DNA from: Acidimicrobiales bacterium
GTDB lineage: Bacteria > Actinomycetota > Acidimicrobiia > Acidimicrobiales > SZUA-35
Length of the DNA stretch: 33,807 nucleotides
Assembly: GCA_020629155.1 (NCBI GenBank)
Contig: JAHDDW010000019.1
Location: 1-33,807 of the forward strand
Reading direction: 5' to 3'
In this document: positions 8,179-22,428 of the stretch, piece after piece
How positions within the stretch are numbered: position 1 is the first letter of the stretch
Layout of the letters: each line of letters begins with the position of its first letter
The notes under the pieces: generated by a model
The model's input: only the letters and a program-made list of their open reading frames with translations
The model's database searches: none
Told to the model about the DNA's origin: nothing
Translations under genes and position numbers: made by a program

Positions 8179-8538
8179 TTATTCTGCATTATCAGGATCT
8201 TCGGAATATCTTTCTGGTTCGATTATCTGTACATCAAGTATGTTTACTGTTTCTTCAGTAATACTCAAATCGTATATCGTTATGGATTCTAACTTTCCGA
8301 GAAAGATAAGAAGAGGGAAGTCATCTCCATAAAAATTGTAGTAACGAACATGGTCTGATGATTTTGCGGCTAGGGGTAGTTCTTCCCATAGTTCTCTGAA
8401 AGCCTCTATCACATAGTGAAGAATATTTCTGAGGATGATTTCGTCAGACGAAGGTTTGTCCCGATTGGTTAAAGAAGATTGTAATTTGTCGATTACTTTT
8501 GGCGATAGTTTAACTTTTCGCCATTCTGGCGTTATCAA
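8179..8538 (-). CDS. Hypothetical protein, second gene of an overlapping pair
   Basis: 119 residues with no family recognised. It is soluble, with a Lys-rich N-terminus (WRKVKLSPKVIDKL), a helical middle (LHYVIEAFRELWEEL) and a beta-rich C-terminus containing FYGDDFPLLIFLGKLESITIYDL. The start is TTG at 8538, overlapping the stop of the upstream gene by TTGA, so the two are translationally coupled. The size and arrangement resemble a type II toxin-antitoxin pair, but no toxin fold or catalytic residues could be assigned. Confidence 0.65.
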   Translation of the reverse strand: MITPEWRKVKLSPKVIDKLQSSLTNRDKPSSDEIILRNILHYVIEAFRELWEELPLAAKSSDHVRYYNFYGDDFPLLIFLGKLESITIYDLSITEETVNILDVQIIEPERYSEDPDNAE

Positions 8539-8735
8539 GCTGCTTGTTCTGAAGCGCGCTTGTCGTTTAGCGTAGGTCTACCAAATGGTTCGTTCTCGAC
8601 TAGCAAAGTATCAACACTTTGTTTAATCAGGTTTTGTATCTTTTGTGGCAGAATCGATGGATCTGAGTTGCCAGCAGACACGATTTTTTTATTTTGCTCG
8701 TCTACGGGAAGCGCTAAAAATCCATCAGAGAACAT
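8535..8735 (-). CDS. Small hypothetical protein, first gene of an overlapping pair
   Basis: 66 residues from ATG at 8735 (MFSDGFLALPVDEQ). The start is fixed by a textbook leaderless promoter on the minus strand: TGCTACAAT, an extended -10, then exactly 6 nt, then ATG. A longer reading from TTG at 8753 would place the promoter inside the gene. No family is recognised. It is coupled to the 119-residue downstream gene by a 4-nt overlap. Confidence 0.65.
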   Translation of the reverse strand: MFSDGFLALPVDEQNKKIVSAGNSDPSILPQKIQNLIKQSVDTLLVENEPFGRPTLNDKRASEQAA

Positions 8736-8810: not shown

Positions 8811-9989
8811 GTGTTTACACTTAGTGTTGTGGCAGATAGCACAAAAGAAATAGCGGTGGTGCCTTTATTTGGCAAAATCACTACTGCACGTGTAGCAGCG
8901 CCGACAAAATCGAGCATCCTGCTTGGTATTATGGCCTATCGCTGGTTGACGCTTGCCTGGTTTGTGGTGGTCTACAGCTGGGAGGTGTATCGCCGTAACA
9001 TTTTAGGTAACGATCCATTTGTTGCTCATCCACTAAGCGGTTTTATTTTATGCGGATTTGCTATTGCTCATACTAGTTGGCTGACCTATGCCTATCGCAA
9101 AGATCCGAAGCGCATCTTACGGGTTGCAGAGATACTTGTCGAAATTGCTATCGCTGCGTTGCTTATTGGTTTGGATATGTGGGTGTATCAAACCGAGCAC
9201 AGCCAATCTTTGCCATCAATGTGGATTGTGAGCCCTGTTTTTGTTGTTGCTATTGCTGCTGGGCGGCGCACGGCTGTTGTTGCTGGCATAGGGTTGGGGG
9301 TTTGTCGCTATATCGGATGGCTTCCTTTCGCTGAAGACTCTTCTTATTCGATCGCACGCTTGGGTACCATCTTTTTCCTTGGAATTGCTGGATGGATAGC
9401 TGGCTATATCATGATTGAACTTGCGAAGACAGATCGGTCTATTTCCGCGTTCAAAGCGAGAGAAGAAATTGCCCGTACGCTGCATGATGGCGTTCTGCAA
9501 ACACTCGCCATTATTCAACGAACGAGCGAGGATACAAAACTTGTTAACCTGGCGCGAACGCAAGAAAAAGAACTGCGCGACTATCTTTTTGGGACGTATG
9601 CCCCGCACCAAAACTTGGCGACAGGGCTTCGTTCTGTTGCTCGAAAGGCAGAGCAACGATATCCAATAAAGGTTGAAGTCGTGACCGCCCCCGACTTGAA
9701 ATCTCAGTCAGATTTTCATACACAAACACTTTGCAAAGCCGCTGGGGAGGCCGTGACTAACGCAGCCAAACATGGGCCAGCCACACAAGTTACGATATAC
9801 GCCGAACCAGCCGATAGAGGCATAGTATTTGTCTCAGTGAAAGACAATGGTAAGGGTTTCGCAACGGAAGCTGTCGATGAGGGGCAAGGGATTTCTCGAT
9901 CAATCCGAGGCAGGATCGAAGGGTCAGGTGGCCGTGTTGAAATAACAAGCCGCCTTGACCGAGGCACAGAAGTTAAAATGTGGCTGTAG
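8811..9989 (+). CDS. Membrane sensor histidine kinase (NarL/MacS-like family)
   Basis: 392 residues. Five or six transmembrane helices span about 40-205. A HisKA_3-type dimerisation segment follows: REEIARTLHDGVLQTLA, with phosphoacceptor His225. A GHKL ATPase domain follows, with N-box EAVTNAAKHG (about 313-322) and G1 box DNGKGF (345-350). The layout resembles actinobacterial MacS-like kinases without a periplasmic loop. GTG at 8811 is the first in-frame start; a Met at residue 41, just before the first helix, is an alternative. The response regulator follows 64 bp downstream, so the two form a cognate pair. The signal is unknown. Confidence 0.9.
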   Translation: MFTLSVVADSTKEIAVVPLFGKITTARVAAPTKSSILLGIMAYRWLTLAWFVVVYSWEVYRRNILGNDPFVAHPLSGFILCGFAIAHTSWLTYAYRKDPKRILRVAEILVEIAIAALLIGLDMWVYQTEHSQSLPSMWIVSPVFVVAIAAGRRTAVVAGIGLGVCRYIGWLPFAEDSSYSIARLGTIFFLGIAGWIAGYIMIELAKTDRSISAFKAREEIARTLHDGVLQTLAIIQRTSEDTKLVNLARTQEKELRDYLFGTYAPHQNLATGLRSVARKAEQRYPIKVEVVTAPDLKSQSDFHTQTLCKAAGEAVTNAAKHGPATQVTIYAEPADRGIVFVSVKDNGKGFATEAVDEGQGISRSIRGRIEGSGGRVEITSRLDRGTEVKMWL

Positions 9990-10053: not shown

Positions 10054-10689
10054 GTGACGACAACTATCCCAAAACATATTGTGCGAGTGATTCTTGTTGA
10101 TGATCACCCTATTTGGCGAAGCGGTGTCAAGGCTGACTTGGGTGATAACTTTCATGTCGTTGCTGAAGCAAGCAATGCAGCGGACGCGATCGCTTTGATT
10201 AAGGAACATAAGCCAGATCTTGTGGTTTGTGATTTGCATATGCCAGGTGGTGGTATCAAAGTTGCTAAGACTTGTGGCGAAGAGACCACCATTGTTATGC
10301 TCACTGTTTCAGAAGCCGAAAAGGATTTGCTTGATGCCGTCGCGGCAGGTGCGTTGGGCTACCTTGTGAAATCGACGCCGCCCGATCAGCTTCGAGATGC
10401 TTTATGGAGGGCGAGTAAGGGCGAGCCTGCTTTTTCGCCTCAACTTGCAAGCCTTGTCCTCGGCGAGTTTCGTCGAATCAAAAATGCCTCAAATGCCGAC
10501 GCTATTTCAGAACGCGAACGAGAAGTATTACAACATGTTGCCCGAGGTCATAGCTATAAAGAAATCGGCGAAGAGCTTTTCATCGCACCTAAGACAGTTG
10601 AAAACCACGTCCGAAATATCCTTAAGAAGCTTCATTTGAGCCGCAGGCAAGAACTTGTTCGCTATGCGATAAAACATGGGATTGAATAG
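10054..10689 (+). CDS. NarL/LuxR-family response regulator
   Basis: 211 residues. The N-terminal receiver domain has acidic residues Asp16/Asp17, phosphoacceptor Asp60 in VVCDLHMP, Thr84 and Lys106. The C-terminal LuxR helix-turn-helix starts at ISEREREVLQHVARGHSYKEI and ends with KTVENHVRNILKKLHL, the DNA recognition part. It is activated by phosphotransfer from the kinase just upstream. GTG at 10054 is preceded by TATAAGAT about 9-10 nt upstream, so it may also have its own promoter with a very short leader. Targets are unknown. Confidence 0.95.
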   Translation: MTTTIPKHIVRVILVDDHPIWRSGVKADLGDNFHVVAEASNAADAIALIKEHKPDLVVCDLHMPGGGIKVAKTCGEETTIVMLTVSEAEKDLLDAVAAGALGYLVKSTPPDQLRDALWRASKGEPAFSPQLASLVLGEFRRIKNASNADAISEREREVLQHVARGHSYKEIGEELFIAPKTVENHVRNILKKLHLSRRQELVRYAIKHGIE

Positions 10690-10695
10690 AAGCGG

Positions 10696-10710
10696 TAGGC
10701 TTCAGCTATG
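10696..10710 (+). promoter_or_regulatory. Leaderless promoter at the RNase Z start
   Basis: TAGGCT (10696-10701), 6 nt, then ATG at 10708. The same hexamer and spacing occur before the kinase gene at 15587. Confidence 0.6.
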
Positions 10711-11631
10711 AGTTCACGAGAGTTTATTGTTTTAGGAACAGCGAGTCAGACCCCAACACGCAAAAGAGCGCACAACGGCTATGTGCTTCGTTGGGATAAT
10801 CAGCTTGTCCTTTTCGACCCAGGGGAGGGGACGCAACGACAATGTTTACTCGCAGGCGTTTCAATAGCAAAACTGACCGCTGTCTGCATAACACATTTCC
10901 ACGGTGATCATTGCCTCGGCTTGCCTGGTGTTATTCAACGACGCTCGTTAGATAACCGTCAGAACAAAATGCAAGCGCCGTTGCCTATCTATTTCACAGC
11001 CGACGGGCAAGAGTTTTTTGATCGAGCTAGACATCTAAGTGCATTCAACGACCAGGCAAATATCGAACCTAAACCAACTGTTGCAGGTGACCAGACGGCA
11101 ACGCTTGGCGACCTCACAATGAGCACACGCTATTTAGACCATCGAATAACAACATTGGGCTATCGATTTGATGAACCTGACAAGCAGGCGCTCAACAAAG
11201 AAGCGTTGCAAGCCAAAGGCATTGTTGGCGTCGATGTCAAGACCCTTTTAGCCGAAGGCAAGATAGAAACCTCTATGGGGACGGTGGGTTTAGCGGAAGT
11301 TTCCGAAACCAGAAAAGGCCAATCAATGGCTTTTGTTATGGATACAGCTATGTGCGATGAGGCTCTTCAACTTGCAGAAGGCGTTGACTTTTTGGTATGC
11401 GAGTCGACATTTCTAGAGGCAGAAAAGGAACTAGCGGCGCAGTACAAACATCTAACTGCCAAGCAGGCAGGGCAGCTAGCAGAACAAGCGAGGGCACAAA
11501 AACTTGTGCTCACCCACTTTTCTGCCCGCTACACAAACCTTGAACAATTTGGGGTAGAAGCCAGTGGGCATCACAATAACGTTGTGGTCGCTAACGACCT
11601 CGACGTTATTGCTTTGCCTGCACGCAAGTAA
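10708..11631 (+). CDS. rnz: Ribonuclease Z (tRNA 3' endonuclease), metallo-beta-lactamase fold
   Basis: 307 residues. The zinc motif HFHGDH (His63, His65, Asp67, His68) is followed by CLGLPG, the RNase Z signature. Downstream ligands are YLDHR, MDTAM and the C-terminal THFSARY. The known role is endonucleolytic removal of the 3' trailer from tRNA precursors. The tRNA-Gly in this window does not encode CCA, which fits the use of RNase Z. The gene ends 3 bp from the end of the convergent recA. Confidence 0.93.
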   Translation: MSSREFIVLGTASQTPTRKRAHNGYVLRWDNQLVLFDPGEGTQRQCLLAGVSIAKLTAVCITHFHGDHCLGLPGVIQRRSLDNRQNKMQAPLPIYFTADGQEFFDRARHLSAFNDQANIEPKPTVAGDQTATLGDLTMSTRYLDHRITTLGYRFDEPDKQALNKEALQAKGIVGVDVKTLLAEGKIETSMGTVGLAEVSETRKGQSMAFVMDTAMCDEALQLAEGVDFLVCESTFLEAEKELAAQYKHLTAKQAGQLAEQARAQKLVLTHFSARYTNLEQFGVEASGHHNNVVVANDLDVIALPARK

Positions 11632-13015: not shown

Positions 13016-13336
13016 GTGAAACGTATTTTTTTTGTTCCTTTCATCTGTTTACTCGCCTTAAGCGCATGCGGTGACGACAAAGTTGAACCTGAAACAATTA
13101 AAGAGCGGCTCGAAAAAATTGAAGGTCGAGAGCTTACTTCAACCGAAGTGACAAAGCAGTTAGACAAAGCTGAGTTTATTTGCCAGCTAAATAATGATGT
13201 GCTTGTTGCTATGTGGGAAACAATGGATGAGAAGCAGCTAGCGTTCCAAGATTTTGTGTTTGAGGTGCAATGCAAAGACAAGGCTGCCCTTTATACCGAA
13301 AGCACTGACCGTCTACTTTCAGAAGCCTCTGAATAG
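13016..13336 (+). CDS. Small secreted lipoprotein of unknown function
   Basis: 106 residues. The signal peptide MKRIFFVPFICLLALSAC has a lipobox LSAC with Cys18, so it should be lipid-anchored outside the membrane. The mature part is acidic and helical (DKVEPETIKERLEKIEG) with two further cysteines, ICQ and VQC, that could form a disulfide. The GTG start is supported by TATCCT 7 nt upstream, a leaderless promoter. No family is recognised. Confidence 0.8.
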   Translation: MKRIFFVPFICLLALSACGDDKVEPETIKERLEKIEGRELTSTEVTKQLDKAEFICQLNNDVLVAMWETMDEKQLAFQDFVFEVQCKDKAALYTESTDRLLSEASE

Positions 13337-13404
13337 TTATCTAAAAAGCTGAAGACGTAAGCAGGTGCACGCTTTCAGTCCAATTCGCCACCCTCAGCTT
13401 GATT

Positions 13405-13434
13405 GGGGATCTCATCTCTGTTAACTGAGATCCC
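13405..13434. repeat. Inverted repeat, possible terminator
   Basis: GGGATCTC (13406-13413) pairs with GAGATCCC (13427-13434). It lies 70 bp past the lipoprotein gene and 20 bp before a composite palindromic repeat. There is no T-run, so it is only a weak terminator candidate. Confidence 0.45.
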
Positions 13435-13515: not shown

Positions 13516-13584
13516 GACCTGAATAGGCTTGGGGCGCCAGAATTTACTACATTCGACCATCTTTCAGTTGCCGTTTTGGAAAAT

Positions 13585-13605
13585 GAATGTTAACATTCCA
13601 TTATG
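13585..13605 (+). promoter_or_regulatory. Leaderless promoter with an overlapping palindromic operator
   Basis: TGTTAACAT (extended -10), 6 nt, then ATG at 13603. The -10 is embedded in GAATGTTAACATTC (13585-13598), a perfect 14-bp palindrome. A repressor bound there would block RNA polymerase; the co-transcribed winged-helix protein is the obvious candidate. Confidence 0.65.
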
Positions 13606-14076
13606 GAATCTGAAAAAAATGCTCAAACGGCGGCTGACAATCTACACGAATTGGATAAGGCGCAAGCAAAAATATATACCAGTTACTCTAGGCTTGCCTG
13701 GTGGGAGATGCCGATCACAGGGCTTTCGTTTGCTGTACTCATAGCCGCACAAGCCGCCACAACCTCGCTAGGAATAATGCTTGCGACAATCAGTATAGTT
13801 TTCTCAGTTGGCTACTCTCTTAGGAGCGCTCGAAAACGAGGAGTCTTCCTCCCCTCATCGAAAAATGCGCCGCCACACATCAAACGAGAATCGATAGTGC
13901 TCGTAGCTGGCTTCGGAATCTCAATGGCTGCTGTGTTTGTTATCAAAGCGTTTACTTCATGGCAAGTTGCAGCCGTAGCCACCTTTGTCATATTGACAGC
14001 CCACAGTGCCATCACCGATCACCGACTTGCAAAAGCAGCGCAAAAAACTGAACGAGATATAAACATGCAGTCATGA
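13603..14076 (+). CDS. Small integral membrane protein, first gene of a two-gene operon
   Basis: 157 residues. A soluble N-terminal segment (about 1-35) is followed by four predicted transmembrane helices in two hairpins, near 37-75 and 98-140, separated by a basic loop (SARKRG). No family is named with confidence; pairs of such a membrane protein with an HTH_34-type regulator occur in actinobacteria. It overlaps the regulator by ATGA, so translation is coupled. Confidence 0.8.
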   Translation: MESEKNAQTAADNLHELDKAQAKIYTSYSRLAWWEMPITGLSFAVLIAAQAATTSLGIMLATISIVFSVGYSLRSARKRGVFLPSSKNAPPHIKRESIVLVAGFGISMAAVFVIKAFTSWQVAAVATFVILTAHSAITDHRLAKAAQKTERDINMQS

Positions 14077-14378
14077 GTCTAGGTGATCTAGACAGTATCT
14101 TAACCAACCCGAAACGACTGGCTGCATTAGGTGTCGTAGTAAACTCCACCTCAACGGCATTCACCCTTATTCGAGACATACTGGAGCTTAAAGACTCCGA
14201 CCTGTCAAAACATATGGGCGCACTCACCGATGCCAACTATGTGACCGCAAAAAAGACAGGCAAGGGGCGCAGTCGTCAAACGTGGTATAGCCCAACAAAA
14301 GAAGGCAAGAAAGCTTTGAAAAAACATATCGACGCGCTCAATGCCCTTGCCGTCGGGGCCGCAAGTGGTGACCGTTAA
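14073..14378 (+). CDS. Winged-helix transcriptional regulator (HTH_34/PadR-like)
   Basis: 101 residues. The sequence fits the single-domain HTH_34 fold: NPKRLAALGVVV, then the recognition helix in DSDLSKHMGALTDANYV, then a basic wing KKTGKGRSRQTWYSPTKEGKKAL. It likely binds as a dimer and autoregulates through the 14-bp palindrome over the operon promoter. It overlaps the membrane-protein gene by 4 bp. Confidence 0.85.
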   Translation: MSLGDLDSILTNPKRLAALGVVVNSTSTAFTLIRDILELKDSDLSKHMGALTDANYVTAKKTGKGRSRQTWYSPTKEGKKALKKHIDALNALAVGAASGDR

Positions 14379-14428
14379 CCAGATGGCTTGGGTTGGAACA
14401 GCGTGCGTGCGGTTCTGTCACATCTTGG

Positions 14429-15172
14429 CTAGCTCTGCTTTTTGAGGCGCACCCAGCGGCCGAACAAAAAGCTTTCGTGTTGCCATATTCTGTCTAGGTT
14501 CATGTTTTGTAGACAGGGAGTGGTGTTTCGTTGCTTTGTTGGGGCTACGTCGACGAGTGTTGGCGCTAGCGTCATGTTCCATTCGTCTATCAAATCGTTT
14601 TTGATCAACTGTTGTGTCACAGCAGGGCCTCCTTCAGATAGTACAACAGCGAATTTTTTTTCGGCGAAAAAACCCATAAGTAAGGGGAAATCCACCGAAG
14701 TCTTCCCCAGCCTTATAATCTCGGTTTTTTCTGCAACTTTTTGAGAAGCTTGTGCTGCTTCGCTAGTTATGACAAGAGGTCGATAGCTGTTGTTTGTAAA
14801 CAAGGGGAGTGAGTCGTCAAATCGGAGGCTTTGGCTGACAATAGCTAAAGCAGGTACTGCGGTTTTGCCCTGGTTGACACGTAGTCTCTGTAGTGCAGTC
14901 GAGAGCTTCGGAGCGCCATATCTCTCGGCGCGCACTGTTTCAGCGCCTACAAGGATAACGTCACTAATAGAGCGGAAAATCTTAAGCATTTCGCGATCTT
15001 TGTCGCTGCTTAAGCCCTCTGATTTTCCACCGACAGCTACTGAGCCGTTTAAGGAATATGCCATTGAACTCATCACCCAAGGTCGAGCAACGTTGTGGTT
15101 GCGCTGTTCTGCATGTAGCGATTCTGCAAGGTTCTCTATCTTGGTTTCTGAAGGTGGAAATAAAGACAACAT
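14429..15172 (-). CDS. RibD C-terminal-domain (DHFR-like) pyrimidine reductase family protein
   Basis: About 247 residues from ATG at 15172. The sequence PWVMSSMAYSLNGSVAV, then GLSSDKDREMLKIFRSISDVILVGAETVRAERYG, is typical of the actinobacterial pyrimidine reductase family related to RibD-C and dihydrofolate reductase; LSEGGPAVTQQLI is the conserved NADPH-binding segment. It probably reduces a pteridine- or pyrimidine-like substrate with NADPH. It lacks the deaminase half of RibD, and no riboflavin genes are adjacent. The frame opens at GTG 15187, but GAGGG about 8 nt before ATG 15172 favours the latter. Confidence 0.8.
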   Translation of the reverse strand: MLSLFPPSETKIENLAESLHAEQRNHNVARPWVMSSMAYSLNGSVAVGGKSEGLSSDKDREMLKIFRSISDVILVGAETVRAERYGAPKLSTALQRLRVNQGKTAVPALAIVSQSLRFDDSLPLFTNNSYRPLVITSEAAQASQKVAEKTEIIRLGKTSVDFPLLMGFFAEKKFAVVLSEGGPAVTQQLIKNDLIDEWNMTLAPTLVDVAPTKQRNTTPCLQNMNLDRIWQHESFLFGRWVRLKKQS

Positions 15173-15187
15173 TGTGGTTTCCCTCAC

Positions 15188-15574: not shown

Positions 15575-15586
15575 TAGGCTGTGTCG

Positions 15587-16558
15587 GTGTCTGAAAAAAA
15601 ATATGATGTAGTCGCCGTGGGAAACGCACTGTTGGATATTTCTGGCAATGTGTCTGACAAGTTTCTAGCTGCTCGGTCGCTTCGTAAAGGTTCAATGGAC
15701 CTCGTCTCTCCAGAAACAGCCATGGAACTCGCAAGCAAACTACGTTCGCCGCATTATTCATCAGGTGGCTCGGCAGCAAACACTGCGGTTGGCGTCGCAT
15801 CGTTTGGTGGGACAAGCGCTTTTATCGGCAACGTGGCATCAGACGAGTGGGGGACTGCATTCACACAGGACCTGTTGTCACTTGGCGTTGACTTCCTCCC
15901 AGCAGGAGACGCGACATCAGAAAATCAGTCGACAGGGTGCTGTCTTGTTTTGGTGACGCCAGATGGTGAGCGCACGATGATGGCTAACCTTGGTGCGAGC
16001 ACAACCTTTAAGCCAGCGTCGCAACAGCAGCACTTTGCTAATTCTGCGATTGTTTTGAGTGAGGGTTATGTGTGTGATAGCGCAGCGTTGTTGCATATGA
16101 CACAAGAAGCGGCTGTTTCCGTACGGCAAGCTGGTGGATTGTTTGCTTTTAGTCTTTCAGATGTGGGTTGTGTTGAGCGTCATCAAGACCGTCTGCGATC
16201 CTTGTTGCCAGATGTCGATATTTTGTTCGCGAACGAGCTCGAAATTCAGGCGCTTTATAATTGCAGTTTTAGTGAAGCCAGCGAAAAAGTGTCAAAAGAT
16301 GTTCCGCTGGCTTTCCTAACACGAGGGGCTCAGGGTTCTTTGGTTGTAGTTGAAGGTCAAGTGACGCAAGTGGCTGCTCAGAAAGTGGCTGCGGTAGACA
16401 CTACAGGGGCAGGTGATCAATACGCGGCAGGTGTGCTTTATGGTTTAAATCAGGGAATGTCGCCTGTCGGCTCGGCGGAGCTTGGCGCAATGGCTGCCAG
16501 TGAAGTTGTGTCTCATCAAGGCGCACGCCCAAAGATAAAACTGAGCGAACTGGTGTAA
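15587..16558 (+). CDS. PfkB-family carbohydrate/adenosine kinase
   Basis: 323 residues from GTG at 15587. The N-terminus YDVVAVGNALLDI and the GGSAANTAVGVASFGG block are typical of the adenosine kinase branch of the ribokinase family; the catalytic signature DTTGAGDQYAAG is near residue 270, with Asp as base. It phosphorylates a sugar or nucleoside with ATP; adenosine or a related nucleoside is the likely substrate. The frame also has GTG at 15581, but TAGGCT (15575-15580) lies exactly 6 nt before 15587, so that start is chosen. The last 180 bp have a diverged second copy at about 17990-18168, beyond the neighbouring ATPase gene. Confidence 0.88.
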   Translation: MSEKKYDVVAVGNALLDISGNVSDKFLAARSLRKGSMDLVSPETAMELASKLRSPHYSSGGSAANTAVGVASFGGTSAFIGNVASDEWGTAFTQDLLSLGVDFLPAGDATSENQSTGCCLVLVTPDGERTMMANLGASTTFKPASQQQHFANSAIVLSEGYVCDSAALLHMTQEAAVSVRQAGGLFAFSLSDVGCVERHQDRLRSLLPDVDILFANELEIQALYNCSFSEASEKVSKDVPLAFLTRGAQGSLVVVEGQVTQVAAQKVAAVDTTGAGDQYAAGVLYGLNQGMSPVGSAELGAMAASEVVSHQGARPKIKLSELV

Positions 16559-16576
16559 AGGTCAACTGCTGTTCCC

Positions 16577-16626
16577 ATTTTTTCATAGGAATAAGTTGAG
16601 AAATTGCTATTTTTTCATAGGAATAA
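16577..16626 (+). repeat. Perfect 18-bp direct repeats before the ATPase gene
   Basis: ATTTTTTCATAGGAATAA occurs at 16577-16594 and 16609-16626, a 32-bp period, immediately upstream of the -10 TACTAT (16631-16636) of the ATPase gene. The position suggests a regulatory site with two protein-binding units. Confidence 0.75.
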
Positions 16627-16627
16627 A

Positions 16628-16645
16628 TGGTACTATTTTGCTATG
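16628..16645 (+). promoter_or_regulatory. Leaderless extended -10 promoter of the ATPase gene
   Basis: TGG-TACTAT (hexamer 16631-16636) followed by TTTGCT and ATG at 16643. This fixes the gene start; an upstream in-frame TTG at 16604 falls inside the repeats. Confidence 0.7.
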
Positions 16646-17947
16646 GAGCGCCTTCTGCAACACGATCTGGTCACATGGAAAAATAAGTCAACTCGCAAGC
16701 CGATTCTTCTTGACGGGGCTCGTCAAGTTGGAAAATCGTATTTATTACGGCATAAATTCGGTGCAGAGCACTTTAAAGAAGTGCACGTTTTTGACTTTCT
16801 CAAATCGCCAGACATTTGCCAACTATTTACAAATGGTCTTGATCCAAGAAATATTTTAAATAAGCTAAGCTTGTTTAAAGAGAAATCTATAGATCCAACG
16901 CAAGATCTTATTATCTTTGATGAAATTGGTGAATGTCCAAAGGCGTTGCAGTCATTGAAGTTTATTGCTGAAGACGAGCCGACATGGTTTGTTTGTGCGA
17001 GCGGTTCAAATGTTGGTCTGTTGAATAGTTTTCCTGTTGGTAAAGTACAGACGCTAACACTGCGGCCAATGAACTTTGAAGAGTTCTTGCTAGCCCACAA
17101 AAATGAGTTGCTTTATGAAGCGTTTAAAAATCGGGATCGAAGCCTTGTCGTGTTTAATAAACTTTGGTCTCTGCTGGTGAATTTTATTTTTGTTGGTGGC
17201 ATGCCTGAGGCAGTGGCAAGCTGGGTAGCCAGCCAAGAGAGCTTAGACCTTGAACGAAGGCGAGACGTTCGAGCTATACAGTCTGAGATCCTTTCTAACT
17301 ACAAGCAAGATTTTGGAAAGTATGCAGGCGCTGCAAACGCATTACATTTAGAAATGGTCTTTTCTAATGTCGCAAATCAGTTGCAAAAAGAAATCCGTGG
17401 ATCTGTGAAAAGGTATAGATTTAAAGATGTTATACACAAAAAGGCAGGGTATAGAGACTTTAAGTCTCTTATTGCGTGGCTTGAGAAAACACATCTTGTT
17501 TCAAAATCGTTTATTGTTGACACGCCTAAAGTTCCTCTCAGTGCGTATGCATCCGATAGCTTTTTTAAGTTGTTTCATCTAGATGTTGGTTTGTTATGTC
17601 GTGAGCTTGGCATCTCGTCCTCGGTTCTAGAGTTGGCTGATGTGACGTATAAAGGGCCGATCATCGAAAATTTTCTACAAAATGAGTTGCTATCATACGG
17701 TGCGTCGCACACCTATGGGTGGTCTGCGAATACATCACGAGTTGAGTTTTTGTTGCAAGTTGGTGATGAAACTTTCCCTGTTGAAGTGAAAGCAGGTGTG
17801 AATACTAAAGCTAAAAGTCTGCGGACGTTTCAGAAAAAATATGCACCATCAAAAACATTTAAATTCATCGGATCTGCTGGAGGAACAGACACAAAGGATC
17901 AAGTGTGGCCACTATTCTATGCAGATATTTTGCGAGAGTATCTATAG
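16643..17947 (+). CDS. AAA-family ATPase with C-terminal DUF4143-type domain
   Basis: 434 residues from ATG at 16643. The N-terminal AAA_14 domain has Walker A GARQVGKS (25-32) and Walker B LIIFDEIG (about 89-96). A sensor-like ASGSNVG is followed by LRPMNFEEFL and VGGMPEAV. The C-terminal DUF4143 domain ends with GDETFPVEVKAG, a stretch resembling a PD-(D/E)XK nuclease core. Members of this family are common in bacteria and archaea, often in several copies, and have no established function. The gene appears inserted at the 3' end of the kinase gene, flanked by a diverged duplicate of that end. It is AT-richer than the neighbouring kinase, consistent with transfer. Confidence 0.88.
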   Translation: MERLLQHDLVTWKNKSTRKPILLDGARQVGKSYLLRHKFGAEHFKEVHVFDFLKSPDICQLFTNGLDPRNILNKLSLFKEKSIDPTQDLIIFDEIGECPKALQSLKFIAEDEPTWFVCASGSNVGLLNSFPVGKVQTLTLRPMNFEEFLLAHKNELLYEAFKNRDRSLVVFNKLWSLLVNFIFVGGMPEAVASWVASQESLDLERRRDVRAIQSEILSNYKQDFGKYAGAANALHLEMVFSNVANQLQKEIRGSVKRYRFKDVIHKKAGYRDFKSLIAWLEKTHLVSKSFIVDTPKVPLSAYASDSFFKLFHLDVGLLCRELGISSSVLELADVTYKGPIIENFLQNELLSYGASHTYGWSANTSRVEFLLQVGDETFPVEVKAGVNTKAKSLRTFQKKYAPSKTFKFIGSAGGTDTKDQVWPLFYADILREYL

Positions 17948-17990
17948 TTCGTTTCACCGTGAGGCTCCATGCTAAATACGACAGAAGGTT

Positions 17991-18168
17991 CTGCAGTGGG
18001 TTTGGGTTGTTGATGTCACTGGTGCAGGCGATCAATATGCTGCTGGCGTTTTCTATGGTCTAAATCAAGGTGTGTCACCTGTCGAGTCGGCCCGGCGCAA
18101 TGGCTGCTAGTGAAGTTGTGTCGCATCAAGGTGCACGCCCAGAAATCAAGCTGAGTACGCTGCTGTAA
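17991..18168 (+). pseudogene. Displaced 3' end of the PfkB kinase gene
   Basis: From 18009 the frame reads VDVTGAGDQYAAGVFYGLNQ, matching VDTTGAGDQYAAGVLYGLNQ of the intact kinase; weaker similarity starts near 17991. A 5-bp deletion near 18090 shifts the frame, after which GAMAASEVVSHQGARPEIKL and a TAA at the matching place follow. In the first 27 codons I count 22 differences in 81 bases, 16 of them at third positions. The two copies therefore diverged as functional genes before one was displaced. There is no start or promoter. Confidence 0.88.
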
Positions 18169-18177
18169 AGGCTGATG

Positions 18178-18198
18178 TAGGTTTGGGGATCAAACCTA
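18178..18198 (-). terminator. Hairpin at the end of the broken ATPase gene
   Basis: TAGGTTTG (18178-18185) pairs perfectly with CAAACCTA (18191-18198) around a 5-nt loop and includes the stop codon of the minus-strand ATPase. There is no clear T-run, so termination is only possible. Confidence 0.4.
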
Positions 18199-19445
18199 TG
18201 GGCCAAGTGTCGATATCGAGACAACATGCACGCCATCATCTCGTCGATACGACATTCCGTGGCCAGTAATAATTGCAAGCGTTGCAGGTTCGTCAATACT
18301 TTTTGTGTCGATTTTGTTTTTGAAGCTAAGAAGATTAGCAGCTGCCTTGTCAAGAATCTTAGGAGATGAGCCGAGTTTAACTTCAAACGCACCCCATCTG
18401 CCGTCACCAGCAGTGACCACAGCATCAACCTCAAGACCATTTTTATCCCGATAATGCTCGACACTTCCGTCGAGTGGTTGGCTGTATATACGGAGATCTC
18501 TAATGACTAGTGATTCAAAGATACACCCAAATGTGTTGAGATCTTTCAGTAGTTTCGGGGCCGACGCATCGAGCGCAGCAGCTGCTAGTGATGGGCAGGT
18601 CAGATGGCGGCGTGGTCGCTGGACTGCTTGAACGTTCGAGCGGAGGTGGCTTCCCCAGCCAGGCTGTTCTTCCAATATTCATATACGCTGAAGAGCTTCA
18701 AGCCAGATAGTAACTGTCTTGGCATGTACCGAAGAGTCAGAACCTCCAATTTCTTGTCCAAGTTTTGCAACGGATCGGTCTGTCGTTATATTTCGAGCGA
18801 TTGCTCTGATTAATTGAGTTAACTTTCTAGGATTGCGAACTTCAGTTGCGGCGTTGATATCTGCCTCGACAGTCTGTCTGAGGTAATCTTTTGCTGCTTT
18901 GTGTGCATCTTCAACTGATCGTTTTTGTTGAAGAGGCCAACCTCCCTTAACTGCAATTTCGGCAAGATTTGGAATTGTGATGTTGTTGTCTGCAGCTGTT
19001 GCAGTTTGTCCGTCAAGAAGATTGCGAAGAGATACTTTCCCCGTAGAAGATTGCGATTCATACATCGACATTGGTCGCATTTGAACAAAACTGAACCGGC
19101 CAGCTCCAATGTGGCGATTCACTTCATTAGGGGGAGAGGCCGAACCTGTTAGGATGAACTGGCCGTCGTTGCCTCGGTTGTCAATTTCGCGTCGAACTTC
19201 CATAAACTGGGGGCAACCTGATATTCATCCAAAAGGCGAGGAGTTGCCCCTTCAAGAGCAATATTTGGAGCAAGTCTGGCTAGCTCAGCATTGTTGTTGA
19301 TGTCAAGAAGAAACTCACTCTTAGCTAGTTGGCGAGCTGTTTCTGTCTTGCCGCAGGCCTTCGGGCCTTCGATTACAACTGCGCCAGTTCTGCTAAGGCG
19401 TTTGTTCAGCTCTTGATCGGCAATTCTTGGCATATAGTCGGCCAT
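18196..19445 (-). pseudogene. Broken AAA/DUF4143 ATPase, frameshift plus in-frame stop
   Basis: The N-terminus MADYMPRIADQEL...GAVVIEGPKACGKTETA contains an intact Walker A (GPKACGKT). At about 19200 a one-base loss after LLDEYQVAPSLW shifts the frame; the sequence resumes as EVRREIDNRGNDGQFILTGS. An in-frame TGA at 18681-18679 interrupts ALQRI-*-ILEEQPGW, after which the C-terminal domain (HYRDKNGLEVDAVVTAGDG, WGAFEVKLG) continues in the same frame to 18196. The whole would be about 415 residues, a different subfamily from the intact ATPase at 16643. Two independent lesions argue against a single sequencing error. Confidence 0.88.
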
Positions 19446-19453
19446 GACCATCC

Positions 19454-19502
19454 CTACTAGCTCGTTTATCTGAATGCTACTAGCTCATTTATCTAGATAA
19501 AT
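19454..19502. promoter_or_regulatory. Direct repeats and 16-bp palindrome upstream of the broken ATPase
   Basis: CTACTAGCTCGTTTATCT (19454-19471) recurs with one mismatch at 19477-19494. The second copy runs into ATTTATCTAGATAAAT (19487-19502), a perfect 16-bp palindrome. It lies just upstream of the ATG at 19445 on the minus strand, so it is a probable operator of that gene. Confidence 0.6.
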
Positions 19503-19533
19503 CTCTGTGTAATCTTGTGAAGCTCTTGGATGA

Positions 19534-20340
19534 CTACTGTTTGGGTTTATAGTACTTGTCACGTGCAACGGTGGGCAGTCGATCCCAATAAGAATAGAAG
19601 ATGTCGCGCATCATTTGTGCGTAGTGTTGATTGACAATTTCAACGCCAATTTTCTGTCCATCACGCCAGCAATATGTTGCGACACAGTTGTTGTAGATCG
19701 TCATATGGTGTGTTAGGTCAAGTTCTGACGGCGAAACATATTTTTGTTGATGAAAAGACTGTAAGTACTGTTGGTTTTGTGTGAAATACGGATTGTACTT
19801 TGTATCTATGGGCTGTATTGATTTCGCTATAATACCTGTCCTTACATACTGTGCGCGAAATCGTTCTAGCCACTCTTCATCTGGGATTAGCTCGTCAAGG
19901 TTTCCTTTTTCAAAACAAAGCAGATCGTTTTCTGCAGAGAGCTCATTCCAAAGCATTTGCTTGAAACCTGCAATGCCTTGATAGGTCTTGACCTGAAAGT
20001 TAAGAGGATTTGCATCGCTCGCTAATTCTTCAAGTGCAGGCATAACCTTCATAGCATTGTCAAGTTGAGCCTGAATTTTTGCCTGTTCTTCATTAAGGCG
20101 CAAGAGAATATTAGTAGGATCTGCTGGAATAATACGTTTTCCAGAAGAGTCAATTTTGATGGTGACAAGCTGGCGGTCGTGCAAACTCTCTATTAGGCGA
20201 TATACCTTTGTTCTATTGATTTCGGTAGCCCGTGATAGCTGAAGATGAGTTGATGGGCCAAGGCGTAGAAGTTCATAATACAATTTTGCCTCACGGGGCT
20301 TAAGCCCAGCCTGCTCTAACGTTTTTATAATGTTGTCCAT
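19534..20340 (-). CDS. TrmB-family transcriptional regulator
   Basis: 268 residues from ATG at 20340 (MDNIIKTLEQAGLKPREAKLYYELLRLG). The N-terminal winged helix has the TrmB pattern with recognition helix region INRTKVYRLIESL. A coiled segment, LLRLNEEQAKIQAQLDN, follows, then a C-terminal effector-like domain rich in aromatic residues. TrmB proteins are best known as sugar-responsive regulators in archaea; the ligand here is not evident. An upstream ATG/TTG extension to 20382 is less likely. It is divergent from the dehydrogenase-like gene, with an inverted repeat between them. Confidence 0.82.
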   Translation of the reverse strand: MDNIIKTLEQAGLKPREAKLYYELLRLGPSTHLQLSRATEINRTKVYRLIESLHDRQLVTIKIDSSGKRIIPADPTNILLRLNEEQAKIQAQLDNAMKVMPALEELASDANPLNFQVKTYQGIAGFKQMLWNELSAENDLLCFEKGNLDELIPDEEWLERFRAQYVRTGIIAKSIQPIDTKYNPYFTQNQQYLQSFHQQKYVSPSELDLTHHMTIYNNCVATYCWRDGQKIGVEIVNQHYAQMMRDIFYSYWDRLPTVARDKYYKPKQ

Positions 20341-20352
20341 TCTGGTGAACAA

Positions 20353-20371
20353 CGCTAACAGGTGTTTAGCG
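20353..20371. promoter_or_regulatory. Inverted repeat between the TrmB-like and dehydrogenase-like genes
   Basis: CGCTAA (20353-20358) and TTAGCG (20366-20371) flank a 7-bp spacer, 13 bp upstream of the regulator start and about 50 bp upstream of the dehydrogenase start. It is a candidate TrmB operator for both genes. Confidence 0.5.
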
Positions 20372-20423
20372 AGTTGCCACACTTATTCAAACAACGGAAA
20401 ATCTGATTCGGAAGTAGGTAGCC

Positions 20424-21407
20424 ATGGATAAAGTGCTTGTGACGGGTGATGTTTTTATAAATAGCGACAATATCACTCAGCTTGAGCAAGCTGGGTGCAG
20501 TGTTACTCGCAGTAGCAATAGCGATATGACTGAAAAAGAGCTATGTGAAGCTTTGCAAGGGTTCGACGGATACATACTTGGTGGTAATGAGAAAGTAACC
20601 AAAAAAGTTATAGATTCAGCGAAAAATCTACGTGCTATTGCATGCACTGGAATAGGTTTTGAGTCGTTTGTCCCAGCATGGGAGCACGCGTTATCTAAAA
20701 ATATTCTTGTCACAAACACGCCAGAGGGACCCACAAATGGGTGCGCCGAATTTTTGGTGTCAGCAGCGCTTGCTATGAATCGTAACTTGTTCACCTTTGG
20801 GCGTGTAGGCGAGCGAAATTCATTCGCTGAATCTATAGGTCTTGAAAACCAAAAGATCGGCATTATCGGTTTAGGGCACATAGGGCAGCGTGTTGCAAAA
20901 TTGGTCAAAAATTTTAATCCATCCACAATTAGCTATTATTCACGTCGACGTTCAGCTTCGGTAGAAGCAGAGCTAGGAATCAACTATCAGCATGGATCTA
21001 CATTATTGCATGAATCGGATGTTGTATTTCTCACAGTAAGAAATACAGCGAAGAACTTTATGGACAAGGTGCGGTTTAACCAAATGAAATCAAATGCGTT
21101 ACTTGTCAGTGTCATGCACCCTGGTGTTATTGTCGAAGCAGATTTACTTGACGCACTTCAGTCCAAAAAAATTCGTGCGATCTCTGACTATCCGATGCAA
21201 GACGGTGCCTTTGATGATTTGCCCTTGGATAGTTGGTACTGTATGAATCAGTCACACACGTTGACAAGTTCATCTAAGACGCTAATGGGTGATATGGCAA
21301 CAGACTCGATGTTAGAAGCATTAGCGACAGGCGCTGATCTCTATGACATCAGAAATATGCCGCATGTCAAAGCGTCAGCGTTTCCTGCGGCTGCATACAT
21401 TAGCTGA
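20424..21407 (+). CDS. D-2-hydroxyacid dehydrogenase-like protein with altered catalytic residues
   Basis: 327 residues. The NAD-binding Rossmann motif GLGHIG (149-154) is intact in IGIIGLGHIGQRVAKL, and the overall fold matches the phosphoglycerate/2-hydroxyacid dehydrogenase family. The family's catalytic Arg (in the NTARG segment) aligns with Pro233 in VMHPGVIVEADLL. The catalytic His of the usual TPH(I/V)AG aligns within TSSSKT (281-286), so it is Ser. Both key residues appear lost, while cofactor binding looks preserved. It may bind NAD without classic dehydrogenase chemistry, or act on another substrate. The gene overlaps the convergent EAL gene by 8 bp and is probably controlled by the divergent TrmB-like regulator. 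Confidence 0.8.
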   Translation: MDKVLVTGDVFINSDNITQLEQAGCSVTRSSNSDMTEKELCEALQGFDGYILGGNEKVTKKVIDSAKNLRAIACTGIGFESFVPAWEHALSKNILVTNTPEGPTNGCAEFLVSAALAMNRNLFTFGRVGERNSFAESIGLENQKIGIIGLGHIGQRVAKLVKNFNPSTISYYSRRRSASVEAELGINYQHGSTLLHESDVVFLTVRNTAKNFMDKVRFNQMKSNALLVSVMHPGVIVEADLLDALQSKKIRAISDYPMQDGAFDDLPLDSWYCMNQSHTLTSSSKTLMGDMATDSMLEALATGADLYDIRNMPHVKASAFPAAAYIS

Positions 21408-22428
21408 CAGCTTTTACTTCGGGGGCGCCGAAAAGGTTGCCTTGCGCCCAGTCGACATCTAACGAGCGGAGCATGTCTGCCTGGGCTTCTGTCTCAACAT
21501 TTTCGGCGACAACCCAGGCGTCGCTGCTGTGGGCTAAGTCAACAACAGCTTTAATCGTAGCAACCGATTCTTTGCTAGGAAGCGACGCGATAAGATCGCC
21601 AGCCAGTTTGAGAACATCAGGTTTGAAGCTTGTGGCAACAACAAGTGTGGAATAGCCATCACCCATATCGTCAATTGCGAGGCGCACGCCAGAGTTGCGT
21701 AACTTGTTGAGTTGCGCCGCCGCTAAATCAACGTTGGTATAGCGATTGCGTTCGGCTGTTTCAAGCACGAGCTGGTCAGGTTCTAACCCGACATCTTCGG
21801 CATGGCGTAACGTCTGCCTAGCCGCCGTTAAATCAAATGTGCCATCAGGAGCCATGATGTTAAGGAAAAGTAAGCCTTCGCCAAGCCAAGGACCGATGCC
21901 AGAAATAGCAAGCCTGCGACCCAACTGGTCAAGCTCGGCTAGCCAGCCGCCATTAGTCGCACGTTCAATAAGCGTGTTGGCTGAAATAATTGCGTTATCG
22001 CCATCATGCGCTCGCAACAACGCTTCAAAACCGACAATAGCTCGATCAGCTAAGGTGACAATCGGTTGATAACGAATCTGATAGTTGAGCTGCTCGCGAT
22101 CAAGGTCTTCTTGCTGCAACATTTCGGAAATTTCAACCAAATCGAGGCTGCCAAGACAATCACGAATCATCTCTTGCGGCGAAGCGTCAGCGTTAGAGAT
22201 GCCGACCTTTACCCGATCAGTCGGTGGAATCAATTCGACAAGCGCACGTAGATACTCACGGCAATTATCAACCTCTATCCACACGACATCAGAACGGATG
22301 TCTATCGAATCGGCAAGTTGAATCAGCTTTTCGTCTAAATGCTTTAAGACGGTTGTGTCAGCGGCACCGAGAAGAATCATTTTAGGCTCAGCGCCAGGGA
22401 GCGTAATATTAGGATCGGTTATCTGCAC
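21400..22428 (-). CDS. EAL-domain cyclic-di-GMP phosphodiesterase
   Basis: 342 residues. An N-terminal domain of about 110 residues (MILLGAADTTVLKHLDEKL) may be sensory. The EAL domain follows with the catalytic set intact: E135-A-L, Asn190, Glu223 in ETAE, Asp253-Asp254 in AIDDMGDG, Lys274, Glu309 in AENVET and Gln329 in AQGNLFG. It should hydrolyse c-di-GMP to pGpG. No GGDEF domain is present. The GTG start is fixed by TACGAT exactly 6 nt upstream. Confidence 0.92.
   Translation of the reverse strand: MQITDPNITLPGAEPKMILLGAADTTVLKHLDEKLIQLADSIDIRSDVVWIEVDNCREYLRALVELIPPTDRVKVGISNADASPQEMIRDCLGSLDLVEISEMLQQEDLDREQLNYQIRYQPIVTLADRAIVGFEALLRAHDGDNAIISANTLIERATNGGWLAELDQLGRRLAISGIGPWLGEGLLFLNIMAPDGTFDLTAARQTLRHAEDVGLEPDQLVLETAERNRYTNVDLAAAQLNKLRNSGVRLAIDDMGDGYSTLVVATSFKPDVLKLAGDLIASLPSKESVATIKAVVDLAHSSDAWVVAENVETEAQADMLRSLDVDWAQGNLFGAPEVKAVS

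Follow-up and report, generated by a model that had tools for sequence, protein, structure and literature searches.

The locus analyzed here raises a single question: how did a gene for a DUF4143 ATPase come to stand between a kinase gene and a second copy of that kinase gene's own 3′ end? We examined this arrangement in the window, by which we mean the whole 33,807-nucleotide stretch of Acidimicrobiales DNA. A sequence-only reading of the window had proposed that the ATPase gene was inserted at the 3′ end of the kinase gene, carrying a replacement end with it and leaving the displaced end behind. The RecA protein scores 516 bits against 1ubc, a mycobacterial RecA, and about 469 bits against the E. 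coli RecA chains 1u94 and 2rec, which suggests that the host is an actinobacterium.

The duplicated kinase end and its empty counterparts

The target gene, an intact PfkB-family kinase gene (15581 to 16558, plus strand; PfkB E value of 7e-45), is preceded by a RibD-like pyrimidine reductase gene (14429 to 15187, minus strand), which adjoins the kinase in several relatives as well, and has the ATPase gene behind it. The fused kinase 3′ end (16403 to 16561) aligns with positions 18018 to 18171 beyond the ATPase gene, both on the plus strand and with the stop codon included. The best flank-to-flank alignment around the ATPase scored 144, compared with 29 when one flank was inverted, which rules out chance as the source of the duplication. 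The clean match spans ~155 bp, and a weaker protein-level match begins at about 17979, so that the full duplication is about 155 to 180 bp long, where the sequence-only reading gave 180 bp. The duplication itself is confirmed. Third codon positions account for 22 of the 31 coding differences between the copies (13 of 17 before the indel, binomial P value of 3e-4; 9 of 14 after it, P value of 0.017), and a 5-bp gap between 18089 and 18090 puts the distal, stranded copy out of frame. No third kinase end was found in positions 18173 to 21600.

Beyond the stranded end lies a second DUF4143 ATPase gene that had escaped the sequence-only reading. Identified from ORFs and Pfam matches, it is decayed into three ORFs (18196 to 19451, minus strand), and a repeat search placed a pair of 18-bp direct repeats upstream of it (19454 to 19494, minus strand); it probably stems from an earlier insertion at this spot. 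Next come a gene for a TrmB-like regulator (19534 to 20382, minus strand) and a D-2-hydroxyacid dehydrogenase-like gene (20424 to 21407, plus strand), both island genes unmatched in the relatives' loci, and then an EAL-domain gene (21400 to 22428, minus strand), which directly adjoins the kinase gene in relatives.

We compared 12 kinase loci from 11 relatives. The kinase and EAL genes are neighbors, facing each other, in nine of these loci, including those of both same-genus genomes (G001 and G002). Six of the nine have a gap of <0.25 kb between the two genes, and the other three have gaps of about 0.4, 1.1, and 2.7 kb; in the window the gap is 4.8 kb and holds the ATPase, the stranded end, the decayed ATPase, the TrmB-like regulator, and the hydroxyacid dehydrogenase. 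A profile search for the ATPase family gave no DUF4143 match in the nine kinase-EAL loci, and none of the 12 fetched loci contained a second kinase end. The ATPase gene is an insertion at a site that is empty in relatives, and these empty sites, together with the same anatomy at other members of the family, support the proposal that it came with a replacement 3′ end.

The further expectation that an empty site would match one of the two copies led to no decision. A kinase match was present in all 41 genomes searched, and the relatives' kinases reach at most 47% amino acid identity; at eight amino acid sites compared across 31 relatives' loci, 78 residues matched the fused copy and 49 the stranded copy, split both ways. 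Since the relatives are this distant and the residues are divided, the native copy at the window cannot be told from them. The two ends resemble each other more than the kinase of any sampled relative, and at this distance their grouping is likewise undecided. By analogy with the protein tyrosine phosphatase (PTP), DctP, and amidohydrolase loci described below, the fused kinase end is presumably the one that came with the ATPase.

Recurrence at other ATPases and the probable direction of replacement

There are 20 DUF4143 matches in the genome of the window, and DUF4143 ATPases were found in at least 98 of 248 sampled genomes of the order. We compared the left and right 1.5-kb flanks of 78 DUF4143 ATPases (15 from this genome and 63 from 60 regions picked among the matches listed), with 191 other genes from the same regions as controls. 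A score of ≥40 was reached by 11 of the 78 ATPases and 4 of the 191 controls (Fisher P value of 3e-4); with one flank inverted, no gene of either set reached it. After inspection, eight ATPases were accepted (P value of 0.006 against the same 4 of 191 controls). L213 was dropped as GC-rich and L167 because its flanks hold two different tRNAs, and L193, whose repeat lies at the start of hipA, was kept out, as were L198, L210, and L212 (scores of 36 to 37). L111 (score of 37) was counted as a ninth case, the weakest, because by eye its differences make codon-by-codon sense.

A search for further ATPases beside duplicated gene ends, which the sequence-only reading had suggested, thus found a copy of the neighbor's 3′ end beyond 9 of the 78 ATPases, four of them among the 15 in this genome. 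No duplicated end was established for the other 69. The duplicated ends belong to the PfkB kinase in the window (plus strand), tRNA-Met (L101), another DUF4143 ATPase (L108), an ORF of unknown family (L111), DctP (L159), a low-molecular-weight PTP (L165), an amidohydrolase-like gene (L157), a small ORF that is not conserved in its genus (L181), and a restriction-type helicase (L183). They are about 30 to 268 bp long. Beyond the stranded end in L111 lies a DUF4143 remnant, the same as in the window. Comparison of L156 with L168 revealed a clean insertion, with the ATPase directly past the stop codon and no duplicated end, and there was no displaced tmRNA end beside the ATPase in L107 and no displaced tRNA-Leu end beside that in L189/L201.

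At three of these targets, relatives with empty sites indicate which end is native. Of the 22 genomes of genus g45, 17 have a match to the PTP gene. The fused PTP end of G184 and G286 closes with a TGA stop followed by the ATPase, and the stranded copies have a TAG stop and the relatives' downstream sequence. Among 13 aligned relatives with a full PTP end, 12 have TAG (G209 has TGA), and 12 share the common downstream sequence (the exception is G288). The alignment left out L236 and L237, and stop codons and downstream sequence were read by eye; the argument rests on these two features because site-by-site tallies of differences were ambiguous. The DctP gene is present in all six genomes of g44, and in five of them it runs straight into the next gene. 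The two DctP ends of G273 differ at nine sites, all synonymous; G278, the closest relative with an empty site, agrees with the stranded copy at seven of these and with the fused copy at none, and the more distant G232 agrees with the fused copy at six. At the amidohydrolase gene of G209, the stranded copy lacks the gene's last ~60 bp and continues into the downstream sequence found in G274, G281, and G255. In these three cases, the stranded copy is most likely the native end. Because the empty relatives tie the stranded ends to native sequence, it is most likely the fused ends that came in with the ATPase.

One and the same type of ATPase occupies a given gene in two backgrounds. The ATPases at the PTP gene of G184 and G286, which are two species, share 93% identity. 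Of 15 further amidohydrolase loci, 14 have no DUF4143 match in the flank retrieved. The remaining one, in G291, has behind the amidohydrolase gene an ATPase that shares 86% identity with the one in G209. There the other type of downstream sequence, which by eye is that of G287 and G233, begins directly after the ATPase, and a stranded end is missing; this speaks for target specificity and against the stranded end as a constant feature.

A degenerate-pattern search of IMG/VR contigs yielded 35 further DUF4143 ATPases. In L320, the gene order is terL, ATPase, terL end, second ATPase, and portal, and the copied terL end is identical at 110 of 118 bases. In the two phage records examined among 146 matching ones, the terL and portal genes are adjacent (MK448997), as are the matching gene, annotated as hypothetical, and the portal gene (PV036447). 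In L334, a 32-bp copy lies where a gene end and a gene start overlap. Duplications were not enriched in the viral contigs (3 of 28 ATPases compared with 7 of 99 other genes, the seven control hits including L327, whose ATPase is identical to that of L320 and was set aside as a duplicate).

Several further arrangements were seen in the same regions. In L107, a tmRNA gene (13046 to 13433) is followed 113 bp later by a DUF4143 ATPase (13546 to 14913) with a perfect 33-bp upstream repeat pair. L100 holds an M48 peptidase gene between 31-bp direct repeats (8634 to 8664 and 10262 to 10292), the repeat being the 3′ end of a bactofilin-like gene, and L105 holds a pentapeptide-repeat gene between 26-bp direct repeats (8579 to 8604 and 9326 to 9351). 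Pieces of a second AAA family occur in the same arrays (L183, 7245 to 7874 and 7967 to 9118; L193, 4391 to 4648), two of them matching AAA_16. All three have the N-terminal motif NPF.P.FG..P..L.GRD, and one L183 fragment is fused to the stranded gene end. Tandem repeats lie near the closest paralogue of the window ATPase (L113, 8078 to 9070 and 10292 to 10425). Behind one gene, G273 and G153 carry one DUF4143 ATPase type and G071 another (L159, 8607 to 10115 with 10167 to 11330; L202; and L191); the ATPase of G071 has 82% DNA identity with that at the DctP site of G273, so that the site is the same and the elements differ.

The nuclease-like domain and the upstream repeats

The window ATPase (16643 to 17947, plus strand; 434 amino acids) was assigned from Pfam matches and structural models as an AAA_14 and DUF4143 protein with a PD-(D/E)XK-like C-terminal domain; we take ATG 16643 as its start in preference to TTG 16604. 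It scores 72.5 bits for PF13173 (AAA_14) and 64.2 bits for PF13635 (DUF4143), with curated cutoffs of 27 and 28.1. An AlphaFold2 model built from a 35-sequence input had a pLDDT of 89.2 and a pTM of 0.89. The best structural matches of its N-terminal part are the archaeal AAA+ ATPases 2QEN (Z score of 17.1; 271 aligned residues; root mean square deviation [RMSD] of 4.5) and 2FNA (Z score of 15.4; 270 residues; RMSD of 3.8), along with STAND-type proteins; the 2QEN and 2FNA alignments span model residues 1 to 323 and leave the nuclease-like domain outside. Among the matches listed, a PDB sequence search returned AAA parts only, and the lists from whole-model fold searches were taken up by AAA+ matches.

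Folded alone (pLDDT of 82.7), the C-terminal part matched mostly PD-(D/E)XK nucleases at moderate Z scores: Can2 (8.2; 127 aligned residues; RMSD of 4.7), Can1 (8.0; 122 residues; RMSD of 3.7), McrC (7.6; 120 residues; RMSD of 3.6), and PspGI (7.0), with many restriction enzymes and Hjc further down; Foldseek matches were weak (best E value of 0.0095). The domain is accordingly modeled with a PD-(D/E)XK core fold. The candidate acidic and E-x-K residues of the window ATPase are E342, E368, E381, and K383, with an arginine at 366. E342, E381, and K383 are present in all 35 ATPases of the order (alignment A1); position 368 is D in 32 of these and E in the window ATPase and its two nearest relatives. 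In the viral-contig set (alignment A2), E381 and K383 are conserved in 32 of 35 proteins, and the canonical E-x-K is missing from three (L320:1399-2715, L326:3013-4227, and L320:10379-11728), the first of which is the ATPase beside the duplicated terL end. Going by the modeled fold, the ATPase may cut DNA.

The repeats noted earlier upstream of the ATPase are genuine: a repeat search identified a direct pair at 16572 to 16594 and 16604 to 16626 (plus strand), 32 bp apart. Defined as ≥14 identical bases with ≤2 mismatches within −120 to +40 of the start, a repeat pair was present at 27 of 82 ATPases, compared with 12 of 359 other genes (P value of 2.5e-13). In this genome, the counts are 11 of 15 ATPases and 1 of 77 other genes; in the viral contigs, they are 9 of 35 and 3 of 205. 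The repeat sequence is private to each ATPase, and the spacing is often 22 to 24, 31 to 34, or 46 bp. The pair may be a site to which the cognate ATPase binds; an operator would be just as possible.

A proposed homing-like mechanism, its rivals, and known systems

We put at about even the prospect that the DUF4143 ATPase is a one-gene, homing-like element built on a protein unrelated to the known WHO enzymes. The unit would consist of a gene 3′ end of foreign origin, a short repeat pair of its own, and the AAA+/PD-(D/E)XK gene. Upon its entry into a genome with an empty target, the protein would assist in breaking or opening the target gene close to the 3′ end. Repair or recombination with the element's copy would then furnish the gene with a new 3′ end, synonymous for the most part, and place the ATPase gene behind it, and the old gene end would be stranded downstream or lost. 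The target gene would stay whole and, should the enzyme cut at its end, would be protected from renewed cutting by the altered sequence there. Repeated invasions would stack, the newest closest to the gene, giving the order kinase, intact ATPase, old kinase end, and decayed ATPase; here the stranded kinase copy would be the native one, and the protein would drive its own spread. In a bolder version, which we find doubtful, DUF4143 AAA+ ATPases would form a large and so far overlooked group of homing elements in bacteria and phages. Each would be a one-gene parasite encoding an AAA+/PD-(D/E)XK protein that recognizes the end of a single host gene as well as the repeat pair belonging to it and that cuts alleles which are still empty; the recoded end brought along would be proof against cutting, which would amount to a natural home-and-rescue drive, with successive invasions stacking up. 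In favor of homing are the insertion at sites found empty in relatives, the stranded native ends at three other targets, the recurring anatomy, the conserved nuclease-type residues, and the private repeats. Counted against homing are E rather than D at 368 and R at 366 in the window protein, the three A2 proteins without E-x-K, the 69 of 78 ATPases with no established duplicated end, the clean sites L156 and G291, the missing third kinase end, the lack of enrichment in viral contigs, and the non-ATPase genes that share the anatomy.

The main rival, possible though short of probable, is passive end replacement, in which the ATPase is ordinary cargo: linear or circular DNA from a related strain, carrying the gene end and the ATPase, recombines by homology within the end of the target gene and joins illegitimately on the far side, pushing the old end downstream. 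This would give the same anatomy with no enzyme activity, and circular intermediates have been proposed for rhs C-terminal displacement in the part of that account consulted (PMC2935791). Non-ATPase genes with the same anatomy (the L100 peptidase and the L105 pentapeptide gene), ATPases that lack the canonical catalytic pair, and the lack of enrichment in viral contigs also favor it. However, duplicated ends in this order are more common at DUF4143 genes than at their neighbors, and on unrelated targets; ATPases are stacked at one gene end in the window, L111, and L320; and two species whose downstream sequences differ carry the same ATPase behind the same gene. Stacking and this shared ATPase-gene pairing point to the ATPase as the common factor.

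Another reading, which we consider improbable, is that ATPase cassettes are placed at gene 3′ ends by a site-specific recombinase supplied in trans, for which the duplicated ends would serve as att sites. The genome has seven tyrosine-recombinase domains (PF00589), a tRNA 3′ end is among the targets, and the ATPase of viral contig L340 lies between 134-bp repeats (8467 to 8600 and 9834 to 9967) that we take to resemble integron attC sites, as if it were an integron cassette. Being integron-like, L340 was left out of the duplicated-end cases. However, none of the seven domains lies on the window's contig (C32), in agreement with the earlier remark that no integrase is visible, or in the fetched ATPase regions; the duplications vary in length, with no shared core evident; and the clean insertions in L156 and G291 have no repeat at the far edge. 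An element targeting gene 3′ ends need not use an integrase, and the nuclease domain inside the ATPase is the better candidate. That the kinase was duplicated in tandem long ago in this lineage, and its second copy later destroyed by insertion and deletion, would fit the closeness of the two ends and differences that suit two genes under selection, but this is very improbable, given that the 12 fetched relatives' loci hold no second kinase end, that the 3′ end alone survives, beside an ATPase, and that the pattern recurs around further ATPases on unrelated genes, for which the relatives point to replacement.

If the ATPases do replace gene ends while spreading, this would explain their high copy number, would provide a bacterial counterpart of the yeast WHO elements with an unrelated enzyme, and would mean that many gene 3′ ends are chimeric. 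Because empty and filled allele pairs can be named, the homing idea is directly testable. Our literature search found nothing on mobile DUF4143/AAA_14 elements among the matches listed and no assigned function for DUF4143 ATPases; the one paper found to name the domain does so as a table entry.

Three known systems bear comparison, each as described in the part of its source consulted. In rhs C-terminal displacement (PMC2935791), a new 3′ end is added and the old one is shunted downstream; there, unlike tips are the payload, whereas the ATPase elements bring a nearly synonymous replacement end with the ATPase as an extra. Free-standing phage homing endonucleases of T5orf172, HNH, and LAGLIDADG types stand beside essential genes, terminase included (PMC10448857, whose main text does not name DUF4143 and whose consulted part describes no stranded gene ends); the ATPase that follows terL in L320 recalls this placement of nuclease genes. 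The closest parallel in anatomy is that of the yeast WHO elements at FBA1 (PMC7282813), which insert past the gene's 3′ end, replace that end, strand 3′ fragments, stack with the newest nearest the gene, leave decayed copies, and occur in either orientation. Gene, intact element, old end, and decayed element follow one another in both systems, and a replaced 3′ end with a stranded old end was found at three other members of the ATPase family, with the direction at the window undecided. WHO proteins are intein-like endonucleases with zinc fingers, one of which was shown to cut FBA1; the window protein has AAA_14 and DUF4143 as its only Pfam matches. In contrast to the WHO elements, the ATPase elements pair an AAA+ module with a predicted PD-(D/E)XK domain that may cut, live in bacteria and phage-like contigs, take many targets, including a tRNA, and carry private upstream repeats.
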